From: Ferrithrix thermotolerans DSM 19514
Lineage (GTDB): Bacteria > Actinomycetota > Acidimicrobiia > Acidimicrobiales > CAIXPF01
DNA: 58,094 nt
Direction of reading: 5' to 3'
Assembly (NCBI GenBank): GCA_945906305.1
Contig: CAMDQT010000022.1
Span: 1 to 58,094, forward strand
Below the pieces are notes generated by a model. That model searched no databases. It saw only the letters and a list, made by a program, of their open reading frames with translations, and was not told the DNA's origin. Positions 8,003 to 51,043 of this stretch are shown here, one piece after another. The position numbers were made by a program, and so were the translations under genes. Each line of letters opens with the position of its first letter. Positions within the stretch are counted from its first letter, which is position 1.

Positions 8003-9700
8003 TTATCGCCGCCCCCCCCGCAAGAGCTGACCAGGGTAGGCGCCGGTGTGCTCGCCTCGTTCGGTCAGCACCTCGCCGTTGACCACGGTGGCGAGGATCC
8101 CGACGGACTTCTGCACGAGGCGCTTGGCTCCACCAGGCAGGTCGTGGGCCACTGACGGCATGGCTGGAGCCACGGTGTCCGCGTTGAACACGCACAGGTC
8201 AGCGACCATACCTTCGCGTATGAGGCCGCGGTCGTGGAAGCCCCACAGCCCGGCCGGCATGGAGGTGAGTTTGCGCACGGCCTCTTCGAGCGTGAAGGCC
8301 TGCTTCTCCCGGGTCCAGTGGCCGAGCACGTGGGTGGGGATGGAGCTGTCCATGAGCTGGCTCACGTGGGCACCGGAGTCGGAGAAGGTCGGCAGGCAGC
8401 GCGGGTGGCGCATGATGTCCAGCACCACGTCCTGGTCGCCATTGAGAATCGGCTGTAGGAAGAACTGCTCGAAATCGCTATCCAAAGCGAGGTCGATCAT
8501 GAGCTCGGCGGGGTCCACGCCGCGTTCGGCAGCGAGATCGGCCACGCTGCGCCAAGGTGGCAACGCCGAGTCCATGACCCGGATCCAGTCGTAATCGGGC
8601 TTGCGGGCCTCGGCCCCGACGCTCTTGGGCCACGCACCATGTTTGGCGGCATCGAGCAGCTTGGCCCGCATCGAGGGGTCGCGCAGCGCAGTCATTTGTT
8701 CTTCGAGCGGCCAGGACCGGAATTCCTTCCATTCCGCCAACGCGTCGAAGGGGACCTGAGTCTTGAAGGAGAGCACCACATTGAACTCGCGGGCGTGGGC
8801 CTGGCCAAACATTCGGCCGCCCTCGGCCGCAGTCTGGTCGAGCAAGTCCAGCATGGCTAGGTGTTCGCCCTTGGGGACCCGTCCGGCGGCGACCCCGAAC
8901 GTGATCGGGACACCGGTTTGCACCGCCAAATGGCGCAACCGACCGTAGTAGTCAGCCTGGCGCTCGGGGTCTCGGCCGACGTCTTCGCCGGCGATCTCGA
9001 AGATGCCGAAGCCGATTTCGCCCAGCACTCCAACCAGGGTCGCCACCTCGTCCCAGGAGGCGAGGCGGGAGGCGACAGGTCGATCGTCGGAGGTCTGATG
9101 GTTGAAGGTTCGCGAGGTGGTGAAGCCCATGGCCCCCGCTCGCATCGCTTCGCGCAGCTCTCGCGCCATCACCACGAGGTCCTCGGGGCGGGCCGCTTCG
9201 GTGAAGGCCCTCTCGCCCATCGCCCAAGTGCGCAGGGCGGAGTGGCCCACATACCCGGCGTAGTTGATGCCCTTGGGCAGTCGCTCGAGCGTATCGAGAT
9301 ACTCCGGAAAGGTCTCCCACGTCCAGTTGATGCCGGCGGCCATCGCCGCGGGGGAGATGTCCTCGGCCCGTTCGAGATTACGGACCACGAGGTCGCGCTG
9401 GTGAGCCCGGGCGGGAGCGAGGGTGAACCCGCAGTTACCCATGACCACGCTGGTGACGCCATGCCAGCACGACGAGGTACCGAGCGGGTCCCACGAAATC
9501 TGTGCGTCCATGTGGGTGTGACCGTCGATGAAGCCGGGAGTCACCATGTGACCGTCGGCGTCGACCTCCCGCTGGCCACGATCTTTGATCCGGCCGATGG
9601 TGGCGATATGGCCACCGCGCACCCCGACATCGGCCCGGTAGCGAGCCAGGCCGGATCCGTCGACGATGGTGCCGTTGCGAACGACAAGGTCATAAGCCAA
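8003..9700 (-). CDS. N-acyl-D-amino-acid deacylase family amidohydrolase (paralogue 2, subfamily A)
   Basis: A 565-residue close paralogue of the gene at 75-1784, sharing whole blocks such as YDLVxRNGTxVDGSG, HTHMDAQ (H61, H63, D65), GNCGFTLAPARAHQRDLVVR (Cys90) and the SDSGAHVSQ(I/L)MDSS segment. I chose a TTG start at 9700 because it lines up exactly with the paralogues and has a seven-G ribosome binding site a few bases upstream; the frame stays open to 9790 but has no homology there. The role is hydrolysis of an amide or N-acyl bond. A 41-base stretch is identical to the paralogue (9387-9427 versus 1471-1511), which suggests recent duplication or gene conversion. It is divergent from the medium-chain reductase gene. 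Confidence 0.9.
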   Translation of the reverse strand: MAYDLVVRNGTIVDGSGLARYRADVGVRGGHIATIGRIKDRGQREVDADGHMVTPGFIDGHTHMDAQISWDPLGTSSCWHGVTSVVMGNCGFTLAPARAHQRDLVVRNLERAEDISPAAMAAGINWTWETFPEYLDTLERLPKGINYAGYVGHSALRTWAMGERAFTEAARPEDLVVMARELREAMRAGAMGFTTSRTFNHQTSDDRPVASRLASWDEVATLVGVLGEIGFGIFEIAGEDVGRDPERQADYYGRLRHLAVQTGVPITFGVAAGRVPKGEHLAMLDLLDQTAAEGGRMFGQAHAREFNVVLSFKTQVPFDALAEWKEFRSWPLEEQMTALRDPSMRAKLLDAAKHGAWPKSVGAEARKPDYDWIRVMDSALPPWRSVADLAAERGVDPAELMIDLALDSDFEQFFLQPILNGDQDVVLDIMRHPRCLPTFSDSGAHVSQLMDSSIPTHVLGHWTREKQAFTLEEAVRKLTSMPAGLWGFHDRGLIREGMVADLCVFNADTVAPAMPSVAHDLPGGAKRLVQKSVGILATVVNGEVLTERGEHTGAYPGQLLRGGRR

Positions 9701-17504: not shown

Positions 17505-19241
17505 TCAGGCTCGGCCGTGGCGCAGCAGCTTGCCTGGTGTCGCTCCGGTGCACACGCCGTTCTCGAAGGTCACCTCGCCGTTGACGACGATGTTCTGGTA
17601 GCCCTGCGCCCGCTGGATCCGACGCCATTCGCCACCCGGAAGGTCCTCCGCGACCTCGCCGATCCACTGCGGGTCCATGTCGAGTTCCTCCATGGCGTAG
17701 ACCACCACGTCGGCCGCGGCGCCTTCGCGCAGCACGCCGCGGTCGCGGAAGCCTCCCGCATGGGCCGGCAAGGCCGACATGCGGTAGTGGGCTTCCTCCA
17801 GCGTGAGCTTGCCCTCGTCGCGGACCAGCCACTTGAGCAGATCCGTCGGCCAGGAGCCACCGGTGAAGAACTTGGTGTGGGCGCCGCCGTCGGACACGCC
17901 GGGCAGGGTGTAGGGGACATCCATCAGCTCGACCATGAAGTCCGCGTTGGAGCCCTTATCCGGGCCAAGGAAGTCGGCCTTGAGGTCCGTGGCGAGTGCG
18001 AGGTCCAACATGACCTCAGCCGGGTGCTTGCCTTCCTCGAGGCCGATGTCCTCGAGGTTGCGGCCGACGTACTTCTGCAACTCCGGTCGGCGGCCAACGC
18101 CTTGGACCACGAGGTCCTCCAGCGGTCCGCCAACGCCGGGACGAAGCTTGCGGTAAATGGCCTTGTTGCGGATTTCGGCATCCACCACGGCCTGGCGTAG
18201 GACGGGGTCGGCCATCTTGGTGAGCTTCTCTTCGTGCGTGCCGGTGGTCAGGTCCCGCCAGGTTCGGGCGAAGTCGTAGAGGTTCCAGTGCTCCAAGCTG
18301 AACACGAAGCCCGAACGGACCGTGGCGCACTGACCGTAGACCTGCAGGCCCTGGTCCCAGCAGCGCTTCAGCCAGGCGAGGGACTTGCGGTGCGGGTCGG
18401 GGTTGGTGCGGGTGGGGGCGATGGCGTTGTGGATCACCGGCCGACCTGCGACCGCCGCGAGGCGTTCGACGAACTCGAGGTCCTTCTTGATCTTGCCCGT
18501 GGCCTGGGTGATCTGGATGAAGCCCTCGTCACGCTCGGCGAGCACCTCGGCTAGGGCGAAGATGTCCTCGTCGACCATGGTGTCAGTGACCATCGGGGTG
18601 CCGTCGTAGTCGGCCTGGGTGGAGTTGCGGCCGAGGCGCTGGATGGAGAAGCCGCACAGGCCGGCGTCCATGCCCTCGTGCAGCAGGCGCTGCATTTCCT
18701 TGCGCTCCTGGGGGGTGGCGGCGCGGGTTTTGGCCGCCTCGAGACCCATCACGTAGGTCATGAGCGAGGCGGTGGGCATGTACTGGATGCAGTTCACGCC
18801 GAGGGGCGCCCGCTCGAGGCTGTCGAGGTACTCGGGGATGGTCTCCCAATCCCAGGTGGGGAGCATTCCCTCGACCATGGACTGGTAGGGGATGGCCTCG
18901 GTGCGCACCATGGTGAGCATCGAACGCTCGCGGAAGTCGGGCTTGACCGGGGCGAAGCCAAAACCGCAGTTGCCGAGCACCACGGAGGTGACGCCGTGCC
19001 AGCCGGACATGGTGCAGTAGGGGTCCCAGCGGATTTGCGCGTCGTAGTGGGTGTGCAGGTCGATGAAGCCGGGGGCCACGATGAGGCCATCAGCGTCGAT
19101 GACCTGGTTGGCACCGCCTACTGGACGGCCCCCTAACTGGGCGATTTTGCCGTCTTTGATCCAGACGTCGCCGCGGTAACGCGGCACCCGGGTGCCGTCA
19201 ACGATCGTGCCACCCTTGATGTGGATGTCGTACTCAGCCAT
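17505..19241 (-). CDS. N-acyl-D-amino-acid deacylase family amidohydrolase (paralogue 3, subfamily B)
   Basis: A 578-residue amidohydrolase. Metal-site residues are H63, H65 and D67 in HTHYD, Cys92 in GNCGFGF and D451 in VSDGGAH; H271 in PVIHNAIA may be a further ligand. In the region where typical D-aminoacylases have a THxR motif it reads IQITQATG (about 242-249), with no histidine. The ATG at 19241 has an AAGGGGGAG ribosome binding site. The subfamily B paralogues at 21762 and 49313 match along the whole length, so all three probably act on related substrates. Together with paralogue 4 it flanks the glutamine synthetase gene. N-acyl-D-amino acid or cyclic amide hydrolysis is the likely activity; this is inference from family. 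Confidence 0.91.
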   Translation of the reverse strand: MAEYDIHIKGGTIVDGTRVPRYRGDVWIKDGKIAQLGGRPVGGANQVIDADGLIVAPGFIDLHTHYDAQIRWDPYCTMSGWHGVTSVVLGNCGFGFAPVKPDFRERSMLTMVRTEAIPYQSMVEGMLPTWDWETIPEYLDSLERAPLGVNCIQYMPTASLMTYVMGLEAAKTRAATPQERKEMQRLLHEGMDAGLCGFSIQRLGRNSTQADYDGTPMVTDTMVDEDIFALAEVLAERDEGFIQITQATGKIKKDLEFVERLAAVAGRPVIHNAIAPTRTNPDPHRKSLAWLKRCWDQGLQVYGQCATVRSGFVFSLEHWNLYDFARTWRDLTTGTHEEKLTKMADPVLRQAVVDAEIRNKAIYRKLRPGVGGPLEDLVVQGVGRRPELQKYVGRNLEDIGLEEGKHPAEVMLDLALATDLKADFLGPDKGSNADFMVELMDVPYTLPGVSDGGAHTKFFTGGSWPTDLLKWLVRDEGKLTLEEAHYRMSALPAHAGGFRDRGVLREGAAADVVVYAMEELDMDPQWIGEVAEDLPGGEWRRIQRAQGYQNIVVNGEVTFENGVCTGATPGKLLRHGRA

Positions 19242-21761: not shown

Positions 21762-23510
21762 TCAGCCCTTGCCGTTGCGCAGCAGCTTGCCCGGGGTGGC
21801 CCCGGTGCATTCGCCGTCGCTGAAGGTTTCCTCGCCGTTGACGAGGATGTGGCGGTACCCATGGGCCCGCTGGATCCGGCGCCACTCGCCACCGGGAAGG
21901 TCGTAGACAGCCTCGCCAACCCAAGCCGGGTCGATGGCGAGCTCGTCCATGTCGTAGACGATCACGTCAGCCGGGGCACCCTCACGCAGGACGCCGCGAT
22001 CGCGGATGCCAGCGGCATGCGCCGCGAGGCCGGACATGCGGTAGTGCGCCTCTTCGAGTTCGATCTTCTTCTCGTCACGCACCATCCACGCCAGGAAGTC
22101 CGTCGTCCAGGCGCCACCAGTGAAGAACTTGGTGTGGGCACCACCGTCGGACACACCAGGGATGGTGTAGGGCGAGTCGTTGTACACACCGGCCATGTGG
22201 TCGACGTTGAAGTCGGGGCCCTCACCGAGGAACTCCGTCTTCAGGTCCGTCATGAGCGAAAGGTCCAGCATGACGTCGAGGTAGTGCTTGCCTTGTTCCT
22301 CGGCGATCTGGCCGAGGGACTTGCCGACGTACTGCTGCATGTCCGCACGGCGGGCGACGCCCTGAACGACGAGCTTCTGGGGCGGACCGCCCACAGCGAG
22401 CTGCGTATTGGCGAACAGGGTGTTGGCCGTCTCGGTTTCCTTGCGCAGCTTCTCGCGGATGGCGGGATCCTGCATCTTGCGGATCTTGTCCTCAAGGGTG
22501 CCGGTGGTCGCTTCACGCCATGCCGGGCTGGAGTCGTAGAGGTTCCAGTTGTCCAAGGAGAACACGAAGCCGGTGCGGATCGTGGCGCCCTGGCCGTAGA
22601 TCTGCAGTCCGTCGCGGTGGGCCTGGTCGAGCCATTCGAGGCGCTCTTGGTAGACGCGCGGGTTCTTTTGGCTGACCGGTACGACGTTGTCGATGATCGG
22701 CCGACCCGCCACCTCGGCGAGGCGACGCTTGAAGTCGAGGTCATCGGGGTAGTTGGGGTTCGCGTCGGTGGCCTGGGTCAACTGGATGCTGCCCTCGTCA
22801 CGCTCGCGAAGTACTTCGGCGAGGGCGAAGATGTCCTCGTCGCACATGGTGTCAGTGACCATGGGGGAGCCGTCGAAGTCGGCCTGGGTGGAGTTCACGC
22901 CGAGGCGTTGGATGGAGAAGCCGCACAGGCCGGCGTCCATGCCTTCGTGCAGCAGGCGCTGCATTTCCTTGCGCTCGGCGTTGTTGGCCGGGCGAGTCTT
23001 GGCGGCCTCGAGGCCCATGACGTAGATCATCAGCGACGCGGTCGGCATGTAGGACATCACGTTGACACCGAGCGGGGCACGGTCGAGGCTGTCGAGGTAT
23101 TCGGGGATGGTCTCCCAATCCCAGTGGGGCAGGAAGCCTTGGCGCATGGCCTCCATGGGGATGGCCTCGGTACGCACCATGGTCAGCATCGACCGCTCGC
23201 GGAACTCGGGCTTGACCGGGGCGAAACCGAAGCCACAGTTGCCGAGCACCACCGAGGTGACACCGTGCCAGCTTGAGATGCTGCACCACGGGTCCCAGCG
23301 AACCTGGGCGTCGTAGTGAGTGTGCAGGTCGATAGCGCCGGGAGCGACGATGCAGCCGCCAGCGTCAATGACCTTCTTCGCCGGGGCCGACGGGCGACCG
23401 CCGATCTGGGCGATCCGACCGTCTTTGATCCACAGGTCGCCGCGGAAGCGCGGAACCCGGGTGCCGTCGACGATGGTGCCGTCTTTGATGTGGACGTCGA
23501 ATAGATCCAT
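21762..23510 (-). CDS. N-acyl-D-amino-acid deacylase family amidohydrolase (paralogue 4, subfamily B)
   Basis: A 582-residue amidohydrolase, subfamily B. It has HTHYD (H63, H65, D67), Cys92 in GNCGFGF and the late VSDGGAHTKFF motif. The ATG at 23510 has an AAGGGGGG ribosome binding site 11 bases upstream. A TACTGT hexamer at 23546-23551 would give a leader of about 30 bases. Long DNA tracts match paralogue 3 (for example 22909-22976 against 18641-18707). A few positions differ from its sisters, such as WDPWCSISSWHG near the active site, which may shift specificity. The CoA-transferase at 23610 lies directly upstream on the same strand, 99 bases away. Confidence 0.91.
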   Translation of the reverse strand: MDLFDVHIKDGTIVDGTRVPRFRGDLWIKDGRIAQIGGRPSAPAKKVIDAGGCIVAPGAIDLHTHYDAQVRWDPWCSISSWHGVTSVVLGNCGFGFAPVKPEFRERSMLTMVRTEAIPMEAMRQGFLPHWDWETIPEYLDSLDRAPLGVNVMSYMPTASLMIYVMGLEAAKTRPANNAERKEMQRLLHEGMDAGLCGFSIQRLGVNSTQADFDGSPMVTDTMCDEDIFALAEVLRERDEGSIQLTQATDANPNYPDDLDFKRRLAEVAGRPIIDNVVPVSQKNPRVYQERLEWLDQAHRDGLQIYGQGATIRTGFVFSLDNWNLYDSSPAWREATTGTLEDKIRKMQDPAIREKLRKETETANTLFANTQLAVGGPPQKLVVQGVARRADMQQYVGKSLGQIAEEQGKHYLDVMLDLSLMTDLKTEFLGEGPDFNVDHMAGVYNDSPYTIPGVSDGGAHTKFFTGGAWTTDFLAWMVRDEKKIELEEAHYRMSGLAAHAAGIRDRGVLREGAPADVIVYDMDELAIDPAWVGEAVYDLPGGEWRRIQRAHGYRHILVNGEETFSDGECTGATPGKLLRNGKG

Positions 23511-24873: not shown

Positions 24874-26571
24874 TCAGTCGGTGGAACGAAGCAGGCGCCC
24901 GGCGAGGACCCCGGTGTGCACCCCGTGGTCCATGAACACTTCGCCGTTGACGACGGTGTAGTCGAACCCGTCCGATTTCTGGATGTAACGGCCGGCCCCA
25001 CCGGGCAGGTCGTAGACGAACTCCGGCGCTGGCAACGACAGCTGCTCGAAGTTGATGACGTTCAGGTCGGCGAACGCACCCGGGGCGAGCACGCCTCGGT
25101 CGGTGATGCCGAAGAGGGTCGCGGTCTCCGACGTCATCATGCGGATGGCCTCCTCAAGGGTCCAGCGCTGCTGTTCGCGCACCCAGTAGGTGAGGAAGTA
25201 CGTGGGCTGGGAGGTGTCCATGATCTGACCGACGTGGGCACCGGCATCGGCGAGGCCCATGACCACGTTGGGGTCCTGGAGCATTTCCACGATGGCTGGC
25301 GTCTGGTGATTGACGAACGGGTAGGTCCACAACGCCGCCCCATCGGTCTCCAACGCGGTGTCGATGAAGGTCTCGACCGGCTTCTGGTTGCGACGGCGGG
25401 CATGGGCTTCGAGGGACTGTTCGGGGTCGGGCTGATAACGGACATGGTCCGGACCGAGGTAGAACGCGTCGGCGGCCTGCAGGCGGGCCGGGGCGGCGTC
25501 GACCTCGGCGATCAGGCGGGCGCGGTAGTCGGGGTCGCGCAGCAGGGCCAGCTTCTCCGTCACCTTCAAGTTGCGAAGGTGACGCCACGACGGGCACTTG
25601 TCATAGGGGGTTCGATTGGCAATTCCGAACAGGATGCCGACGGGCCGGGCGGTGGACTGCGGGCGGATATGGGCCCCGCGTTGGTTGGCCTGCGCCGTCA
25701 ACTCCAAAAGCTTACGGAACCCATTGGGATCGTCTCGTTCCTGGACCAAGCCGAAGGTGACCGGTCGACCGGAACGGCGCGACACCTCTTCCATCCACTG
25801 CATTTCCCGATGGGCGACGGGGTAGGTCGGGTCCCCGTCGCGTACGACGTCGGCTGCGGCCTCGAACACCCCGCGGCCGTGAAGGGCAAGCACGTCGGCA
25901 ATAGCGCACAACTCGTCGGCGCCGGCGTAGGTGCCCGGGACCTTGCGGCCGTCGGGCACCCGGTGCTCAGGGGTGCGCGAGGTGGAAAAGCCGAACGCCC
26001 CCGCGGCCATGGCCTCATCGACGAGGTCGCACATGGCGGCGATGTCCTCGGTGGTGGCGATGGCGGGGTCCTCATCGAGGGAGCGTGGACCCATCACGTA
26101 GTAACGAACGGCGCAATGTCCGACCAGGCCCCCGATGTTGAGGCCCTTGGGCAGCTTCTCGTAGCTGTTGAGGTACTCGCCGTAGGTCCGCCAGTCCCAC
26201 GGCAGGCTCGACAAGATCGAGTTGGCCGGGATGTCCTCGACGGACTCCATCATCTTGGCCAGGTAATCGATATCGGTAGGCCGAACGGGCGCGAAGGTAA
26301 CGCCGCAGTTGCCCATGATGGCCGAGGTCACGCCGTGCCAGCACGAGGAGGTGGCGGCGGGGTCCCAGGCGATTGCGGCGTCGAGGTGGGTGTGAATGTC
26401 TACGAACCCGGGGGTGACGATACGGCCCTCGGCGTCGATGGTACGAGTGGCCGGTCCGTCGACGCGGCCCACGGCGGTGATGCGATCGCCGTCGATGGCG
26501 ACATCGGCGCGGAAGCCCGCCCGGCCTGTGCCATCGATGACCACACCGTTGCGGATGATGAGGTCGTGCAT
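24874..26571 (-). CDS. N-acyl-D-amino-acid deacylase family amidohydrolase (paralogue 5, subfamily C)
   Basis: A 565-residue amidohydrolase that keeps the family core (H60, H62, D64 in HTHLD; Cys89 in GNCGV; LADAGAHVGQIMD with the late Asp) but differs from subfamilies A and B over most of its length. It shares the C-terminal segment DLPGGAGRYIQKSDG with subfamily A, so it is closer to A than to B. The ATG at 26571 has AAGGGGGA 8 bases upstream, and a TAGGGT hexamer at 26600-26605 would give a leader of about 20 bases. It is divergent from an MFS transporter, possibly its substrate importer. Confidence 0.9.
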   Translation of the reverse strand: MHDLIIRNGVVIDGTGRAGFRADVAIDGDRITAVGRVDGPATRTIDAEGRIVTPGFVDIHTHLDAAIAWDPAATSSCWHGVTSAIMGNCGVTFAPVRPTDIDYLAKMMESVEDIPANSILSSLPWDWRTYGEYLNSYEKLPKGLNIGGLVGHCAVRYYVMGPRSLDEDPAIATTEDIAAMCDLVDEAMAAGAFGFSTSRTPEHRVPDGRKVPGTYAGADELCAIADVLALHGRGVFEAAADVVRDGDPTYPVAHREMQWMEEVSRRSGRPVTFGLVQERDDPNGFRKLLELTAQANQRGAHIRPQSTARPVGILFGIANRTPYDKCPSWRHLRNLKVTEKLALLRDPDYRARLIAEVDAAPARLQAADAFYLGPDHVRYQPDPEQSLEAHARRRNQKPVETFIDTALETDGAALWTYPFVNHQTPAIVEMLQDPNVVMGLADAGAHVGQIMDTSQPTYFLTYWVREQQRWTLEEAIRMMTSETATLFGITDRGVLAPGAFADLNVINFEQLSLPAPEFVYDLPGGAGRYIQKSDGFDYTVVNGEVFMDHGVHTGVLAGRLLRSTD

Positions 26572-28540: not shown

Positions 28541-29848
28541 TCAGGCGTCCGCCCCGCGGGCCTGCAGTTCGCGTCGTAAGCGGTGGGCGGCGCGTTCGTT
28601 GCTGACCCGGACGTCGCTCCAACGCACCGGTTGGTCGATGGCCACGTCGTTGACCAACTCAACGCCGTGCGCCAGACCCAGGGGGAAGGCATCGATCGCG
28701 GCCGACTCTGCGGCCGTCATCAGCCGGCCCCACACGGTGAACCCGCCTTCGCCGTCGAGTGTCTCCCCGGCTCGCAACGGCCGTTTGGCCGTGGCCACCA
28801 CGTCGGCCCGCCAGCCGTCGGGCCGTCCAGTGGGCTCGCCGCGTAGCGCCGCGGACAGGATCGACACGTTCAACTCCAGGCCGATGAGGTGATACGGCTT
28901 GTACATCGCCGCGTAACGGCCTGAGACGTCTGTCTTCAGCCCATACTGGCCGAAGGACGCCGCGGCATAGTCGTTGGGGGCCTCGATCACCACGTAGACG
29001 CCCCAGCGGAGGTCTCGAAACACCGGTCGGAAGTCGCGTTCGAGACTGGACACCACCTCGACCTGGCCTTTGTGGTGCAACACGCCGCCTTGATCTGACG
29101 GTCGTAGCAGCTGGGGTAGATCGTCCACGCCGCAAGGCGGAAATTGCAGCCCGCCGGGGGCGGGCGTGAGACCGGTCGCATTGGCGATGGCGCACATTTC
29201 GATGGCGGACTTGGTGCCGTCGAGGAAGCTGTTGAACATTTGGCTGTTCATGCCTGCCGTCGCGGCCTGCTCCGCAGTGAGTCCGTAATGGTCCCAGATC
29301 GTGTCCGGTGTGGAGCGATGGTAGGTGGGATGGTGCTTCGTTCCCTTGCCCCCCGCGACCACCTCGAATCCGCAGGAACGGGCCCAGTCGACCTGCTCGC
29401 ACACCAGAGCAGGCTGGTCGCCGTAGGCCAGCGAGTACACCACCCCGGCATCGGCGGCGGCCCGGGCCAGCAGGGGACCACACAGGGCATCGGCCTCGAC
29501 ATTGACGGCGACGAGGTGCTTGCCCGCGGCGAAGGTGGCCAGCGCGTGCTCCACCCCAACCACCGGGTTGCCGGTGGCCTCTACGACCACGTCGACGTCC
29601 GGCCGGGCTAGTAGCTCCTCCGCGCTGGGCAGGAAAGCAGTGGCGTGAATGAGCGAGTCGGACCAGCCGACGCTACGGCACGCGGCTCGGGCCCGTTCGA
29701 CGTCGAGGTCGGCGATGGCGGTCACCTCGACCGGTGAATGGGGGACCTGGGCGAGAAACATCGAGCCGAACTTGCCCGCCCCGATGAGCCCGACCCGGAC
29801 CGGTCGGCCTGCCGCGGCGCGTTCTTGAGCGAGTCGGTGCAGGTTCAT
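28541..29848 (-). CDS. NAD(P)-dependent dehydrogenase with C-terminal SAF domain (COG4091-like)
   Basis: A 435-residue protein with an N-terminal Rossmann domain (VGLIGAGKFGSMF, about residues 19-31) of the homoserine dehydrogenase / Gfo-Idh type and a C-terminal SAF-like domain (about 360-435, with ATAKRPLRAGETLDGEGG). This arrangement matches the COG4091 'predicted homoserine dehydrogenase with SAF domain' group, which in several bacteria works on sugar acids or branched polyols. The ATG at 29848 overlaps the stop codon of the dioxygenase gene by 4 bases (ATGA), so translation is probably coupled. True homoserine dehydrogenase activity is unlikely, because the rest of the pathway is absent here. 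Confidence 0.85.
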   Translation of the reverse strand: MNLHRLAQERAAAGRPVRVGLIGAGKFGSMFLAQVPHSPVEVTAIADLDVERARAACRSVGWSDSLIHATAFLPSAEELLARPDVDVVVEATGNPVVGVEHALATFAAGKHLVAVNVEADALCGPLLARAAADAGVVYSLAYGDQPALVCEQVDWARSCGFEVVAGGKGTKHHPTYHRSTPDTIWDHYGLTAEQAATAGMNSQMFNSFLDGTKSAIEMCAIANATGLTPAPGGLQFPPCGVDDLPQLLRPSDQGGVLHHKGQVEVVSSLERDFRPVFRDLRWGVYVVIEAPNDYAAASFGQYGLKTDVSGRYAAMYKPYHLIGLELNVSILSAALRGEPTGRPDGWRADVVATAKRPLRAGETLDGEGGFTVWGRLMTAAESAAIDAFPLGLAHGVELVNDVAIDQPVRWSDVRVSNERAAHRLRRELQARGADA

Positions 29849-30633
29849 GAGCCGCCTGCCACGAGTTCGCTCAAGCAGTTGTCGGCGAGAGGGACAATCG
29901 GCGCGAAGTCGCGATGGGCGATCCACTCGGCTCTCTTGAAGCGACGGATGTGGTTGTCGACCCGGCACAGCGAGAGGTAGACGATGACCCGACCGAAGGG
30001 GCTGATGTTGGGTGGGCTGGCGTGCACGAGCAGGCCGGAGAACAGCAACACCGAGCCGGGGGGCCCGACGGGGGCCACGATCCCGCCGCGTTCGGCGAGC
30101 CGGGTGATGGTGGCCCGGTCCAAGGTCCACAACGGATAGGACGTGGTGGCGAGGTCGTGGCCCGCTTGGTAGACACCTTCGAGGTGGCTTCCGGGGATGA
30201 ACAACAACGGGCCGTTGGCCGCGGTCACCTCATCGAGGAACACGGCGATGTTCATGGCGAGGGGTTCGGGCATCTCGTCATCGCGCTGCCAGGTGCCGTA
30301 GTCCTGGTGCCATTGCCAGACCTCGCCGTCGAAGGCGGCCTTTGCGTTGACCTTGTACTGGTGCATGTACACCGGGCCGCCGAGGATCTGCTCGATCGGT
30401 TCGATGAGCCGGGGATGGCGGCCCAGACGGTTGAAGGGATCTGACCACAAGTGCGCCGCGAACGCCGTGCGGGGCGCCCCAGTGGATTCCCGCCAGACTT
30501 CCTCGCGCTCGGTGGCGTAGAGCACGTCGGCCTCGGTACGTAGTAGCCCGGCCTCGTCCGGGGAGAACATGCGGGGGAGGAACACATAACCGTCGTGCCT
30601 GTACTGCTCGAGCTGATCGTCGGTCAGTTTCAC
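29845..30633 (-). CDS. Phytanoyl-CoA dioxygenase family hydroxylase, ectoine-hydroxylase-like
   Basis: A 262-residue non-heme Fe(II)/2-oxoglutarate oxygenase. The iron ligands are H109 and D111 in QWHQDYGTW and H204 in VHASPPN, with R215 placed to bind 2-oxoglutarate. The block WHQDYGTWQRDDEMP resembles the ectoine hydroxylase (EctD) signature, followed by ANGPLLFIPGSH. The serine of the EctD WHSDFETW motif is Gln here, so the substrate is probably not ectoine itself. The GTG at 30633 is chosen because GGAGGAA lies just upstream; starting further up would overlap the epimerase gene. It forms a unit with the epimerase upstream (77-base gap) and the SAF dehydrogenase downstream (ATGA overlap). 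Confidence 0.9.
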   Translation of the reverse strand: MKLTDDQLEQYRHDGYVFLPRMFSPDEAGLLRTEADVLYATEREEVWRESTGAPRTAFAAHLWSDPFNRLGRHPRLIEPIEQILGGPVYMHQYKVNAKAAFDGEVWQWHQDYGTWQRDDEMPEPLAMNIAVFLDEVTAANGPLLFIPGSHLEGVYQAGHDLATTSYPLWTLDRATITRLAERGGIVAPVGPPGSVLLFSGLLVHASPPNISPFGRVIVYLSLCRVDNHIRRFKRAEWIAHRDFAPIVPLADNCLSELVAGGS

Positions 30634-30710
30634 CGGTTCCTCCTCGCCCCATGGCTGATGGCGGAGCCTACTTGGGCCTTGACCCGACGGCTGTAGCGAC
30701 GGGCCAACGC

Positions 30711-31901
30711 TCAGGTTATGCCGGGCAAGTCGCGGTGCTGCTGTCCGGTTGGCCGACGCCGGGACCATTCGGTGCCCGGATTGTCAATCGGGCCGTAGAA
30801 CGCCCGGCTGTAGCCCGGTTCGCGGGCGAATGGCACCGCGGCGCAGTCGGCCACGAACTGGTGGTACCGGGCGATCAGGGCATCCTCCGCGTCGTAGTCG
30901 AAGGGGTCCTGCAACATCTTGACGACCTTGTCGTGCTGGGACACGAGGTGTACGGCCTGCCAACGAACGGTCCGACGCAAGGCCTCGAGCGGACTCACCA
31001 GGTCCCGGTAGCCGAGTTCGTGGCGGATACGGCTGGTGTCCACAACGCGGTGTTGGGTGCTGTGGTGGGCCAGTGACGGGTAGGCCGGCCGGGCCACTTC
31101 GGCCGGTAGGTTGACGATCTCGAAATGGTGGCCCAGTTCCTCGGCCACGATTTCGGCTACCTGGCGGCGGCAGTAGAGCTCATCGTCGCCGACGTTGTAG
31201 ACCCGGCCGGCGGAAATGTCGACGTGGTCAACGGCGCCGAGCACGGCATGGGCCACGTTCTCGACGTAGGCCGCGGTCTCTAGCGTGCGACCGCCATCGG
31301 CGAGGATCAGGTGACGGCGGCCATCCAGGGCCCGTTTCACTACCGACCACTCCTTGGGCACCACCTGGTTCGGCCCGTAGATGTACGGGTAACGGAAGTG
31401 GGTGGCGTCGGGGTGGCGTTCGAAGACCATGGCCTCGCTGGCAACGATCTTGCTCACCTTGTCCGAGCGGCCGCCGCTCTCGGCGAGTTCGGCGATTGAA
31501 CGCTCCTCGTAGCCGCCGAGCGGGGCGAAGGCTTCGGTCTCCGCCGCGCCGAGTCGCATGCCGGCAGGGAAACGGTCCGCGTCGTTGCTGTAGCCGGGAT
31601 AAACCGGAACGCCGCCGATGGAGAACAGCCGGGGGGTACGACCGACCAGCTCGTCGACCAGCATCCGCAGGCGCCCGTACATGGCGAACACGACATCGAA
31701 GTTTCGGCCGCTGATCGCCCCCAGGAACGAGTCCCGGTCGAAGGGGTCTGCATGCAGGTGAGCCACCACCGACTCCGGCGGTAGGGAGTCCACTTCGTGG
31801 CGCCCGGTGTGCAGGATCGTCACCCGATGACCGCGTTCGACCAGGCCATTGACGATGAAAGGACCGGTAGGGCCGGTGCCCCCGATTACCAGGATGTCCA
31901 T
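30711..31901 (-). CDS. NAD-dependent epimerase/dehydratase family protein (extended SDR)
   Basis: A 396-residue extended SDR. The cofactor motif is IGGTGPTGPF (6-15), of the GGTGxxG type. The expected YxxxK active-site pair is not clearly present where it should be; a GGYEERS and a SKIVASE segment lie in the right area. YIYGPNQ in the middle and YVENVAHAVLGA are family-typical. It may therefore be an atypical SDR used for reduction, lactone or sugar chemistry. It carries a TAGGGT hexamer 7 bases before the ATG and no Shine-Dalgarno sequence, so it probably heads the leaderless minus-strand operon that continues into the dioxygenase and SAF dehydrogenase. Confidence 0.88.
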   Translation of the reverse strand: MDILVIGGTGPTGPFIVNGLVERGHRVTILHTGRHEVDSLPPESVVAHLHADPFDRDSFLGAISGRNFDVVFAMYGRLRMLVDELVGRTPRLFSIGGVPVYPGYSNDADRFPAGMRLGAAETEAFAPLGGYEERSIAELAESGGRSDKVSKIVASEAMVFERHPDATHFRYPYIYGPNQVVPKEWSVVKRALDGRRHLILADGGRTLETAAYVENVAHAVLGAVDHVDISAGRVYNVGDDELYCRRQVAEIVAEELGHHFEIVNLPAEVARPAYPSLAHHSTQHRVVDTSRIRHELGYRDLVSPLEALRRTVRWQAVHLVSQHDKVVKMLQDPFDYDAEDALIARYHQFVADCAAVPFAREPGYSRAFYGPIDNPGTEWSRRRPTGQQHRDLPGIT

Positions 31902-49312: not shown

Positions 49313-51043
49313 GTGGTTTCCTACGACATCCACATCAAAAATGGAACGATCGTCGATGGGACGCGAGTTCCTCGTTTCCGCGCCGACGTGTGGATCAAAG
49401 ACGGCAAGGTGGCCCAGATCGGTGGGCGGGCCAAAGGGCCTTCGGAACAGGTCATCGACGCCGATGGTTTGATCGTGGCCCCCGGATTCGTCGACCTGCA
49501 CACCCATTACGACGCGCAGATTCGTTGGGATCCCTACTGCACCATCTCCGGCTGGCATGGGGTCACCTCGGTGGTCTTGGGCAATTGTGGCTTTGGTTTC
49601 GCGCCGGTGAGACCTGATTTCCAAGAGCGCTCGATCCTGACGATGGTGCGCACTGAAGCCATCCCGTATGCATCGATCAAGCAGGGAATGATCTTCGATT
49701 GGGAGACCATCCCGGAGTATCTCGACAGCCTCGATCGGGCCCCGCTCGGGGTGAACTGCATCCAATACATGCCAACCGCCTCGTTGATGACCTACGTGAT
49801 GGGTTTGGAAGCGGCGAAGACCAGGGTCGCCACCGATGCCGAGCGCAAGGAGATGCAGCGGCTGCTGCATGAGGGCATGGACGCCGGCTTGAGCGGGTTC
49901 TCGATCCAACGGCTCGGGCACAACTCGACCCAAGCCGATTACGACGGGTCCCCCATGGTGACGGACACGATGTGCGACGAGGACATCTTGGCCCTCGCCG
50001 AGGTGCTCGCCGAGCGCGACGAAGGATTCATCCAGATCACTCAGGCCACCGGTCAGATCAAGGCCGATTTGGCCTTCGTCGAGAAGCTGGCCGAGGTATC
50101 TGGTCGTCCGGTGATCCACAACGCGATTGCACCCACCCGACGCAACCCCGATCCGCACCGCAAGTCGTTGGCCTGGCTGCAGCGTTGTTGGGATAAAGGC
50201 TTGCAGGTGTACGGCCAGTGCGGACTCAACCGGGCCGGGTTCGCGTTCACCTTGGAGCATTGGAATCTCTACGACTTCTCCAAGCCTTGGCGCGACGTCA
50301 CCGTCGGGACCTTCGAGGAGAAGATGGTGAAGATGGCCGACCCGGAACTTCGCGCCGCCATCGTGGCCGCAGAGGTCGAAAAGGTGGCGCGCTACCGGCC
50401 GTTGCGAGCGGGAGTGGGCGGGCCGCTCGAAAATCTGGTGGTGCAGGCTGTGGATCGACATCCAGAGTTGCAGCAGTACCTCGGACGCTCCTTGAAGGAG
50501 ATCGCGCAAGAGCAAGGGTGCCATCCGGCTGAAGTGATGTTGGACCTCTCTTTGCAGACGGATCTCAAGGCAGAGTTCCTTGGCCCCGACAAGGGCTCCA
50601 ACGCGGACTTCATGAAGGAGTTGTTCGATTCGCCCTACACGCTGCCCGGTGTGTCCGATGGCGGTGCCCACGCCAAGTTCTTCACTGGGGGGGCGTGGAC
50701 GACGGACATCTTGAGTTGGCTGGTGCGCGACGAGAAGAAGTTCACCTTGGAAGAGGCCCACTACCGCATGTCGGCGTTGGCGTCGCATGCCGCGGGCTTC
50801 CGTGACCGTGGCGTCCTGCGCGAGGGTGCCGCGGCGGACATCGTCATCTACGAACTTGAGGAACTCGATGTCGATCCGAAGTGGATCGGCGAAATCGCCC
50901 ACGACCTACCCGGAGACGAGTGGCGACGGGTGCAGCGCGCCAAGGGCTACAACAAGATCATGGTCAACGGTCAAGTCACCTTCGATGAGGGGGTATGCAC
51001 CGGGTTGACCCCGGGTCGGTTGCTACGCCACGGTCGGGGCTGA
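49313..51043 (+). CDS. N-acyl-D-amino-acid deacylase family amidohydrolase (paralogue 6, subfamily B)
   Basis: A 576-residue amidohydrolase, subfamily B, matching paralogues 3 and 4 along its full length. It has HTHYD (H63, H65, D67), Cys92, ITQATG in place of the THxR motif, and VSDGGAHAKFF. The GTG at 49313 follows a run of six G plus GTGGG and aligns with the paralogue starts. Unlike its sisters it lies on the + strand, in an operon-like row: the CoA-transferase at 51064 begins 20 bases after its stop codon. It is the clearest case of linkage between amide cleavage and CoA activation in the window. Confidence 0.92.
   Translation: MVSYDIHIKNGTIVDGTRVPRFRADVWIKDGKVAQIGGRAKGPSEQVIDADGLIVAPGFVDLHTHYDAQIRWDPYCTISGWHGVTSVVLGNCGFGFAPVRPDFQERSILTMVRTEAIPYASIKQGMIFDWETIPEYLDSLDRAPLGVNCIQYMPTASLMTYVMGLEAAKTRVATDAERKEMQRLLHEGMDAGLSGFSIQRLGHNSTQADYDGSPMVTDTMCDEDILALAEVLAERDEGFIQITQATGQIKADLAFVEKLAEVSGRPVIHNAIAPTRRNPDPHRKSLAWLQRCWDKGLQVYGQCGLNRAGFAFTLEHWNLYDFSKPWRDVTVGTFEEKMVKMADPELRAAIVAAEVEKVARYRPLRAGVGGPLENLVVQAVDRHPELQQYLGRSLKEIAQEQGCHPAEVMLDLSLQTDLKAEFLGPDKGSNADFMKELFDSPYTLPGVSDGGAHAKFFTGGAWTTDILSWLVRDEKKFTLEEAHYRMSALASHAAGFRDRGVLREGAAADIVIYELEELDVDPKWIGEIAHDLPGDEWRRVQRAKGYNKIMVNGQVTFDEGVCTGLTPGRLLRHGRG

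Follow-up and report, generated by a model that had tools for sequence, protein, structure and literature searches.

The leucine hydroxylase GriE, a 2-oxoglutarate dioxygenase of the PhyH fold, holds the carboxylate of its substrate by a salt bridge from Arg242, and feeds a dehydrogenase, GriF, whose gene follows its own (PMC5676206). In the second 1-deoxy-D-xylulose 5-phosphate reductoisomerase (DXR-II), an enzyme of isoprenoid synthesis, Lys191, Lys193 and Thr229 anchor fosmidomycin, according to Carretero-Paulet et al. 2013 (PMC3847144); the same paper sets apart two families without a function, DLO1 with Leu, Ile or Val at position 229 and DLO2 with Pro, Ser or Ala there. Here we describe a locus that joins relatives of both kinds of enzyme. 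On contig CAMDQT010000022.1 of Ferrithrix thermotolerans DSM 19514 (assembly GCA_945906305.1) a gene for a dioxygenase, PhyH, is directly followed by a gene for a DXR-II-like oxidoreductase, DRL. The window is this whole contig of 58,094 nt, and all coordinates are positions in it. We find that PhyH and DRL co-occur and co-localise across two phyla, and that the PhyH–DRL pair is the conserved unit.

We searched 385 alphaproteobacterial genomes with PhyH alone and then with DRL alone, which avoids choosing loci by both genes. PhyH was present in 70 genomes and DRL in 90; 68 had both (Fisher's exact p about 2e-53, a value that overstates the significance, the genomes being related). Where PhyH was at least 54% identical, DRL was always there (64/64 genomes), and in 40 of these 64 it came immediately after PhyH in the same orientation, the two genes being separated by 46 nt at the median. 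These counts bear out an earlier, sequence-only reading of the window, which held that the dioxygenase and the SAF-domain oxidoreductase belong together. The two genomes with PhyH and no DRL hold only PhyH copies at 43–47% identity, which are probably paralogs, and each of 14 sampled genomes with unlinked genes had exactly one DRL elsewhere. The overlap by ATGA between the PhyH stop and the DRL start, which that reading had pointed out, is present in the window (29848–29845), and the same 4-nt overlap recurs in loci L087, L088, L089, L118, L206, L211 and L217.

The pair was found in about 18% of the sampled alphaproteobacterial species. In a sample of 369 gammaproteobacterial genomes PhyH occurred in five, all five with DRL. 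With each species represented by a single genome, a scan gave 18 DRL relatives at 51–92% identity, in Actinomycetota and Proteobacteria, many with PhyH immediately upstream. Carriers of the pair include an unrelated actinobacterium (L118), Litoricola, a metagenome-assembled genome of Oceanospirillaceae and the alphaproteobacterium Indioceanicola profundi, on a megaplasmid; among them are cosmopolitan bacterioplankton of both the sea and fresh water, with Litoricola/OM252 strains that are in culture. In the DRL tree the actinobacterial pairs branch from within the proteobacterial ones, and the PhyH tree places them likewise, which suggests that both genes were gained together.

The dependence is one-sided: PhyH is almost never without DRL, and DRL also occurs alone, which would fit PhyH feeding DRL while DRL is fed by other routes as well. 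One could suppose instead that the two enzymes merely share a regulon and do not act in sequence, carrying out independent steps or metabolite repair, for example. DRL is indeed often solo in varied surroundings, including an sdh-mdh-sucCD region, and 22 of the 90 DRL genomes have no PhyH. Against this stand the one-sidedness itself and the fixed order and spacing of the genes, and we consider such an arrangement distinctly unlikely.

The trio that would include the upstream short-chain dehydrogenase/reductase (SDR) gene is not supported. The sequence-only reading had called this gene an epimerase, counted it as part of the unit, and proposed looking for the three genes together in other genomes, with unlinked genes in close relatives as the refutation. 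The pair survives this comparison and the trio does not, because among all PhyH loci examined the SDR gene adjoins PhyH only in the window and in two congeners (L087, L088), whereas the PhyH–DRL pairing recurs widely; we rejected the trio on this synteny. G002, a fourth species of this genus, still has PhyH coupled to DRL, and its SDR ortholog is on a separate contig, next to a gene resembling enoyl-CoA hydratase. The SDR family is also expanded in the genus, with 5–7 relatives per genome. As to the name, the protein is an SDR with the NAD-binding motif GGTGPTG, but an atypical one: the catalytic tyrosine of the YxxxK motif of extended SDR epimerases is absent at that position in it and in the aligned homologs.

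We compared PhyH with its nearest characterised relatives. The closest sequences in the PDB were those of the trans-3/4-proline hydroxylase H11 (217 bits; PDB 7dzz/7e01, identified from fold-search titles), GriE (165 bits; 5nch) and EctD (127 bits). PhyH has the same fold, Fe ligands, 2-oxoglutarate-binding Arg and carboxylate-binding Arg as H11 and GriE, at 37–39% identity to H11 over the structural alignment and 32–33% to GriE. Indeed, the Fe ligands H109, D111 and H204, the 2-oxoglutarate Arg R215, and R234, which aligns with Arg242 of GriE, are invariant in 60 of 60 PhyH orthologs. Because the carboxylate-binding Arg is invariant, an amino-acid-like acid is favoured over the polyol, sugar acid or cyclic compound that the sequence-only reading had proposed, and the substrate is probably an amino-acid-like small carboxylate. 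The region matching the GriE substrate lid reads HDxxTTSYPLW in the 60 orthologs and differs from those of H11, GriE and EctD. This common lid suggests that the orthologs share one substrate, which would not be proline, leucine or ectoine. Neither a PHROG nor a homolog in phages was found for PhyH.

The likeness to H11 and GriE raises the question of whether PhyH is itself a proline or leucine hydroxylase, with DRL oxidising hydroxyproline or hydroxyleucine. These enzymes are the nearest in the PDB, share the catalytic and carboxylate-binding residues and, in the case of GriE, likewise supply a dehydrogenase. However, the identity to H11 is modest and the substrate lid is wholly different, and no action on hydroxyproline is known for the DRL family; this assignment appears quite improbable to us.

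PhyH also recalls ectoine hydroxylase. It contains, at residues 108–115, the EctD-like string WHQDYGTW named in the sequence-only reading, its best NCBIfam match is the ectoine hydroxylase family TIGR02408, and plasmid records often label its homologs thpD. That match, however, falls far below the cut-off of 336.5 bits, with 146.3 bits for the protein and 148.3 when the genome is searched. PhyH and EctD have the superfamily and the HxD...H motif in common, but the active-site motif is WHQDYGTWQRDDEMP in PhyH and WHSDFETWHVEDGMP in EctD, and the signature WHSDFETWHxEDGMP is not found. No match to PF06339 (the ectoine synthase EctC) was seen in the genome, nor in the control genomes. We have set ectoine hydroxylase aside as extremely improbable, in agreement with the doubt already voiced in that reading.

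The second enzyme had been called a SAF-domain dehydrogenase. The SAF domain is there, but the protein belongs to the DRL/DXR-II family (DRL_cat, 200 bits) and is not a generic dehydrogenase. Its structure model is good (predicted local distance difference test score, pLDDT, of 89), with Brucella DRL (3upy) as the best structural match (Z 46.9, root-mean-square deviation 1.9 Å over 413 residues); classical DXR and homoserine dehydrogenases come next (Z 17–20). The Brucella enzyme (3upl, 3upy) and the window DRL are alike in whole-chain fold, SAF domain and the Lys191 equivalent (Lys168), at 32% identity, so that DRL could be taken for a second reductoisomerase of isoprenoid synthesis. In contrast to Brucella DXR-II, the window protein has Thr at position 193 and Ser at 229. 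Across the 62 members of its clade (44 of them paired) Thr, His or Met occupies position 193 in this alignment, and position 229 holds Ser in 49, Pro in 10 and Ala in 3. This clade stands apart from Brucella DXR-II and the Aminobacter protein with 100/100 support on a long branch. The genome, moreover, has an ordinary Dxr, and DLO1 and DLO2 representatives did not complement a DXR mutant (PMC3847144). We give almost no credence to DXR activity of DRL and have set it aside.

The residues at position 229 fit a DLO2-type protein, matching this uncharacterised family; the parts of PMC3847144 consulted make no mention of a link between DLO2 and a PhyH dioxygenase. A plasmid protein of Cupriavidus necator N-1 (L141) falls in the DRL clade as well and may be the DLO2 entry listed in that paper. 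Lys171 and Lys317 are conserved in each of the 44 paired DRLs; the solo relatives vary at these positions. Asp47 ends the second Rossmann strand in at least 97% of the 62 clade members, and Brucella DXR-II has Ala there. An Asp at this place favours NAD+ in Rossmann folds, which suggests that DRL would use NAD+ and hence work oxidatively. D-apionate oxidoisomerase is a possible analogue of DRL.

Other branches of the DRL family have surroundings of their own. On an Aminobacter plasmid (L152:6980-11711) a DXR-II-type DRL, which groups with Brucella DXR-II and has the KKT anchors, is directly followed by acetoin-dehydrogenase-type E1alpha, E1beta and E2 genes, a layout that hints at a catabolic use of DXR-II. 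A third group, also apart from the DRL clade (L093, L094, L096, L099 and L100, in other Acidimicrobiia-order genomes), has Asn at the Lys191 position and stands in nucleotide-sugar clusters (by visual assignment, genes for a nucleotidyltransferase, a sugar 4,6-dehydratase-like enzyme and an RmlC-like epimerase). Solo DRLs at L150, L151 and L153 (Met170/Asn171/Ala214) lie beside putative quinol monooxygenase, NAD(P)-dependent oxidoreductase and sugar-type genes, two of them with TRAP transporters.

We lean towards reading PhyH–DRL as a two-step oxidation module, in which an amino-acid-like carboxylate would be hydroxylated and the product oxidised by DRL. In the first step Arg234 of PhyH would clamp the carboxylate of the small substrate under the HDxxTTSYPLW lid, and PhyH would hydroxylate it with release of succinate and CO2. 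In the second, DRL, with Asp47 favouring NAD+, would oxidise the hydroxylated product; a carbon shift may accompany this oxidation, as in the reductoisomerase relatives. The partnership of the two enzymes is well supported; the order of action, the cofactor and the chemistry we infer, the chemistry from fold and residues. That the pair is an undescribed, widespread catabolic module, in which hydroxylation is followed by NAD-dependent oxidative isomerisation, DXR-type chemistry in reverse, is a possibility that we put forward tentatively and with doubt.

A different substrate class must also be weighed, since solo DRL relatives (48–57% identity) lie beside TRAP transporters, sugar kinases, class II aldolases, sugar isomerases, dihydroxy-acid dehydratase and lactonase, and the fold family includes reductoisomerases. 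The pair might then oxidise a polyol or sugar acid, with DRL as an oxidoisomerase of a branched sugar acid after hydroxylation by PhyH. We think this unlikely: in Limimaricola, Mesorhizobium and Sinorhizobium the solos with TRAP neighbours carry Met170, Asn171 and Ala214, unlike all 44 pair members, no sugar gene recurs beside the pair, and PhyH keeps the carboxylate Arg of the amino-acid hydroxylases.

Several observations weigh against the two-step module. In about one PhyH locus out of three DRL is not the adjacent gene, and in some of these amidase or glutamine-synthetase/glutamate-synthase-like genes take its place; the neighbours of the pair vary widely from locus to locus, and some DRL relatives are in sugar/TRAP clusters. 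A genome of the sister genus (G005) has PhyH and no DRL, on a contig that ends inside PhyH, where DRL would follow. The structure model of PhyH is poor (AlphaFold pLDDT 61) and too weak for pocket analysis.

The features of the window locus are collected in Table 1. The three open reading frames are on one strand and where the sequence-only reading had placed them, and they are not chance frames, because two congeners have orthologs at 88–92% identity in the same order. The GTG start of PhyH agrees with orthologs that begin M(K/Q)LT, and GGAGGA precedes it. A block of CaiB-type CoA-transferase, SDR, PhyH, DRL and SnoaL/LEH-like genes is whole in congener L087 and extends through DRL in L088 (88–93% identity).

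Table 1. Genes and features of the PhyH–DRL locus (window positions)
Feature	Position	Strand	Remarks
DRL, DXR-II-like NAD(P)-dependent oxidoreductase, DLO2-type	28541-29848	minus	ATG start, 435 aa; core of the unit
DRL domains: NAD-binding, DRL_cat, SAF	28541-29848	minus	Pfam DRL_cat 200 bits, SAF
PhyH, Fe(II)/2-oxoglutarate dioxygenase	29845-30633	minus	GTG start, 262 aa; Pfam PhyH 113 bits; core of the unit
ATGA overlap, PhyH stop/DRL start	29845-29848	minus	read from the sequence
Atypical extended SDR ("epimerase")	30711-31901	minus	396 aa; weak Pfam Epimerase match; local neighbour outside the conserved unit

A GntR-type regulator (FCD domain, from Pfam on one regulator scanned) lies near PhyH in 17 loci, usually just upstream; in the window no GntR/FCD regulator adjoins the pair. 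Elsewhere the neighbours of PhyH or the pair include amidase and glutamine-synthetase/glutamate-synthase-like genes, SDRs, HIBDH-like dehydrogenases and genes of the tricarboxylic acid cycle. At L216, L220 and L221 the 4-nt overlap of PhyH is with an amidase gene and not with DRL. In three related genomes (L204, L205, L209) the neighbours of PhyH are genes for glutamine synthetase, a glutamate-synthase domain, GXGXG and a glutamine amidotransferase, which resemble a cluster of the N-methylglutamate type, together with a class V aminotransferase gene and another PhyH. In Litoricola HIMB30 (L113:3118-7956) an Lrp/AsnC gene diverges from an AceE-like E1 gene, a layout that resembles mdeR-mdeB; GntR, PhyH and DRL follow, with convergent DUF4387 and AtuA genes downstream. 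The window itself contains six amidohydrolase-like genes with similar N-termini (75-1784, 8003-9700, 17505-19241, 21762-23510, 24874-26571 and 49313-51043) and several CaiB-type CoA-transferase and luciferase-like genes.

The pair is undescribed in the open literature that we searched, though journals outside it may hold a description. Searches for phytanoyl-CoA dioxygenase with a SAF-domain or homoserine dehydrogenase, for mutant fitness and for later work on DLO2 gave nothing on the pair, and the Litoricola/OM252 physiology papers found make no mention of a dioxygenase. The suggestion that the three genes may form an undescribed route therefore stands in part: no described route was found in this literature, but the epimerase lies outside the unit.

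Members of the PhyH clade often carry the misleading annotation of ectoine hydroxylase. With so strict a partnership each enzyme constrains the other, as DRL should take whatever PhyH makes. Since cultured Litoricola/OM252 strains carry the pair, the question is directly open to bench work. DLO2 was left without a function when it was described in 2013; if the proposed module is true, it would be the first function for this family.

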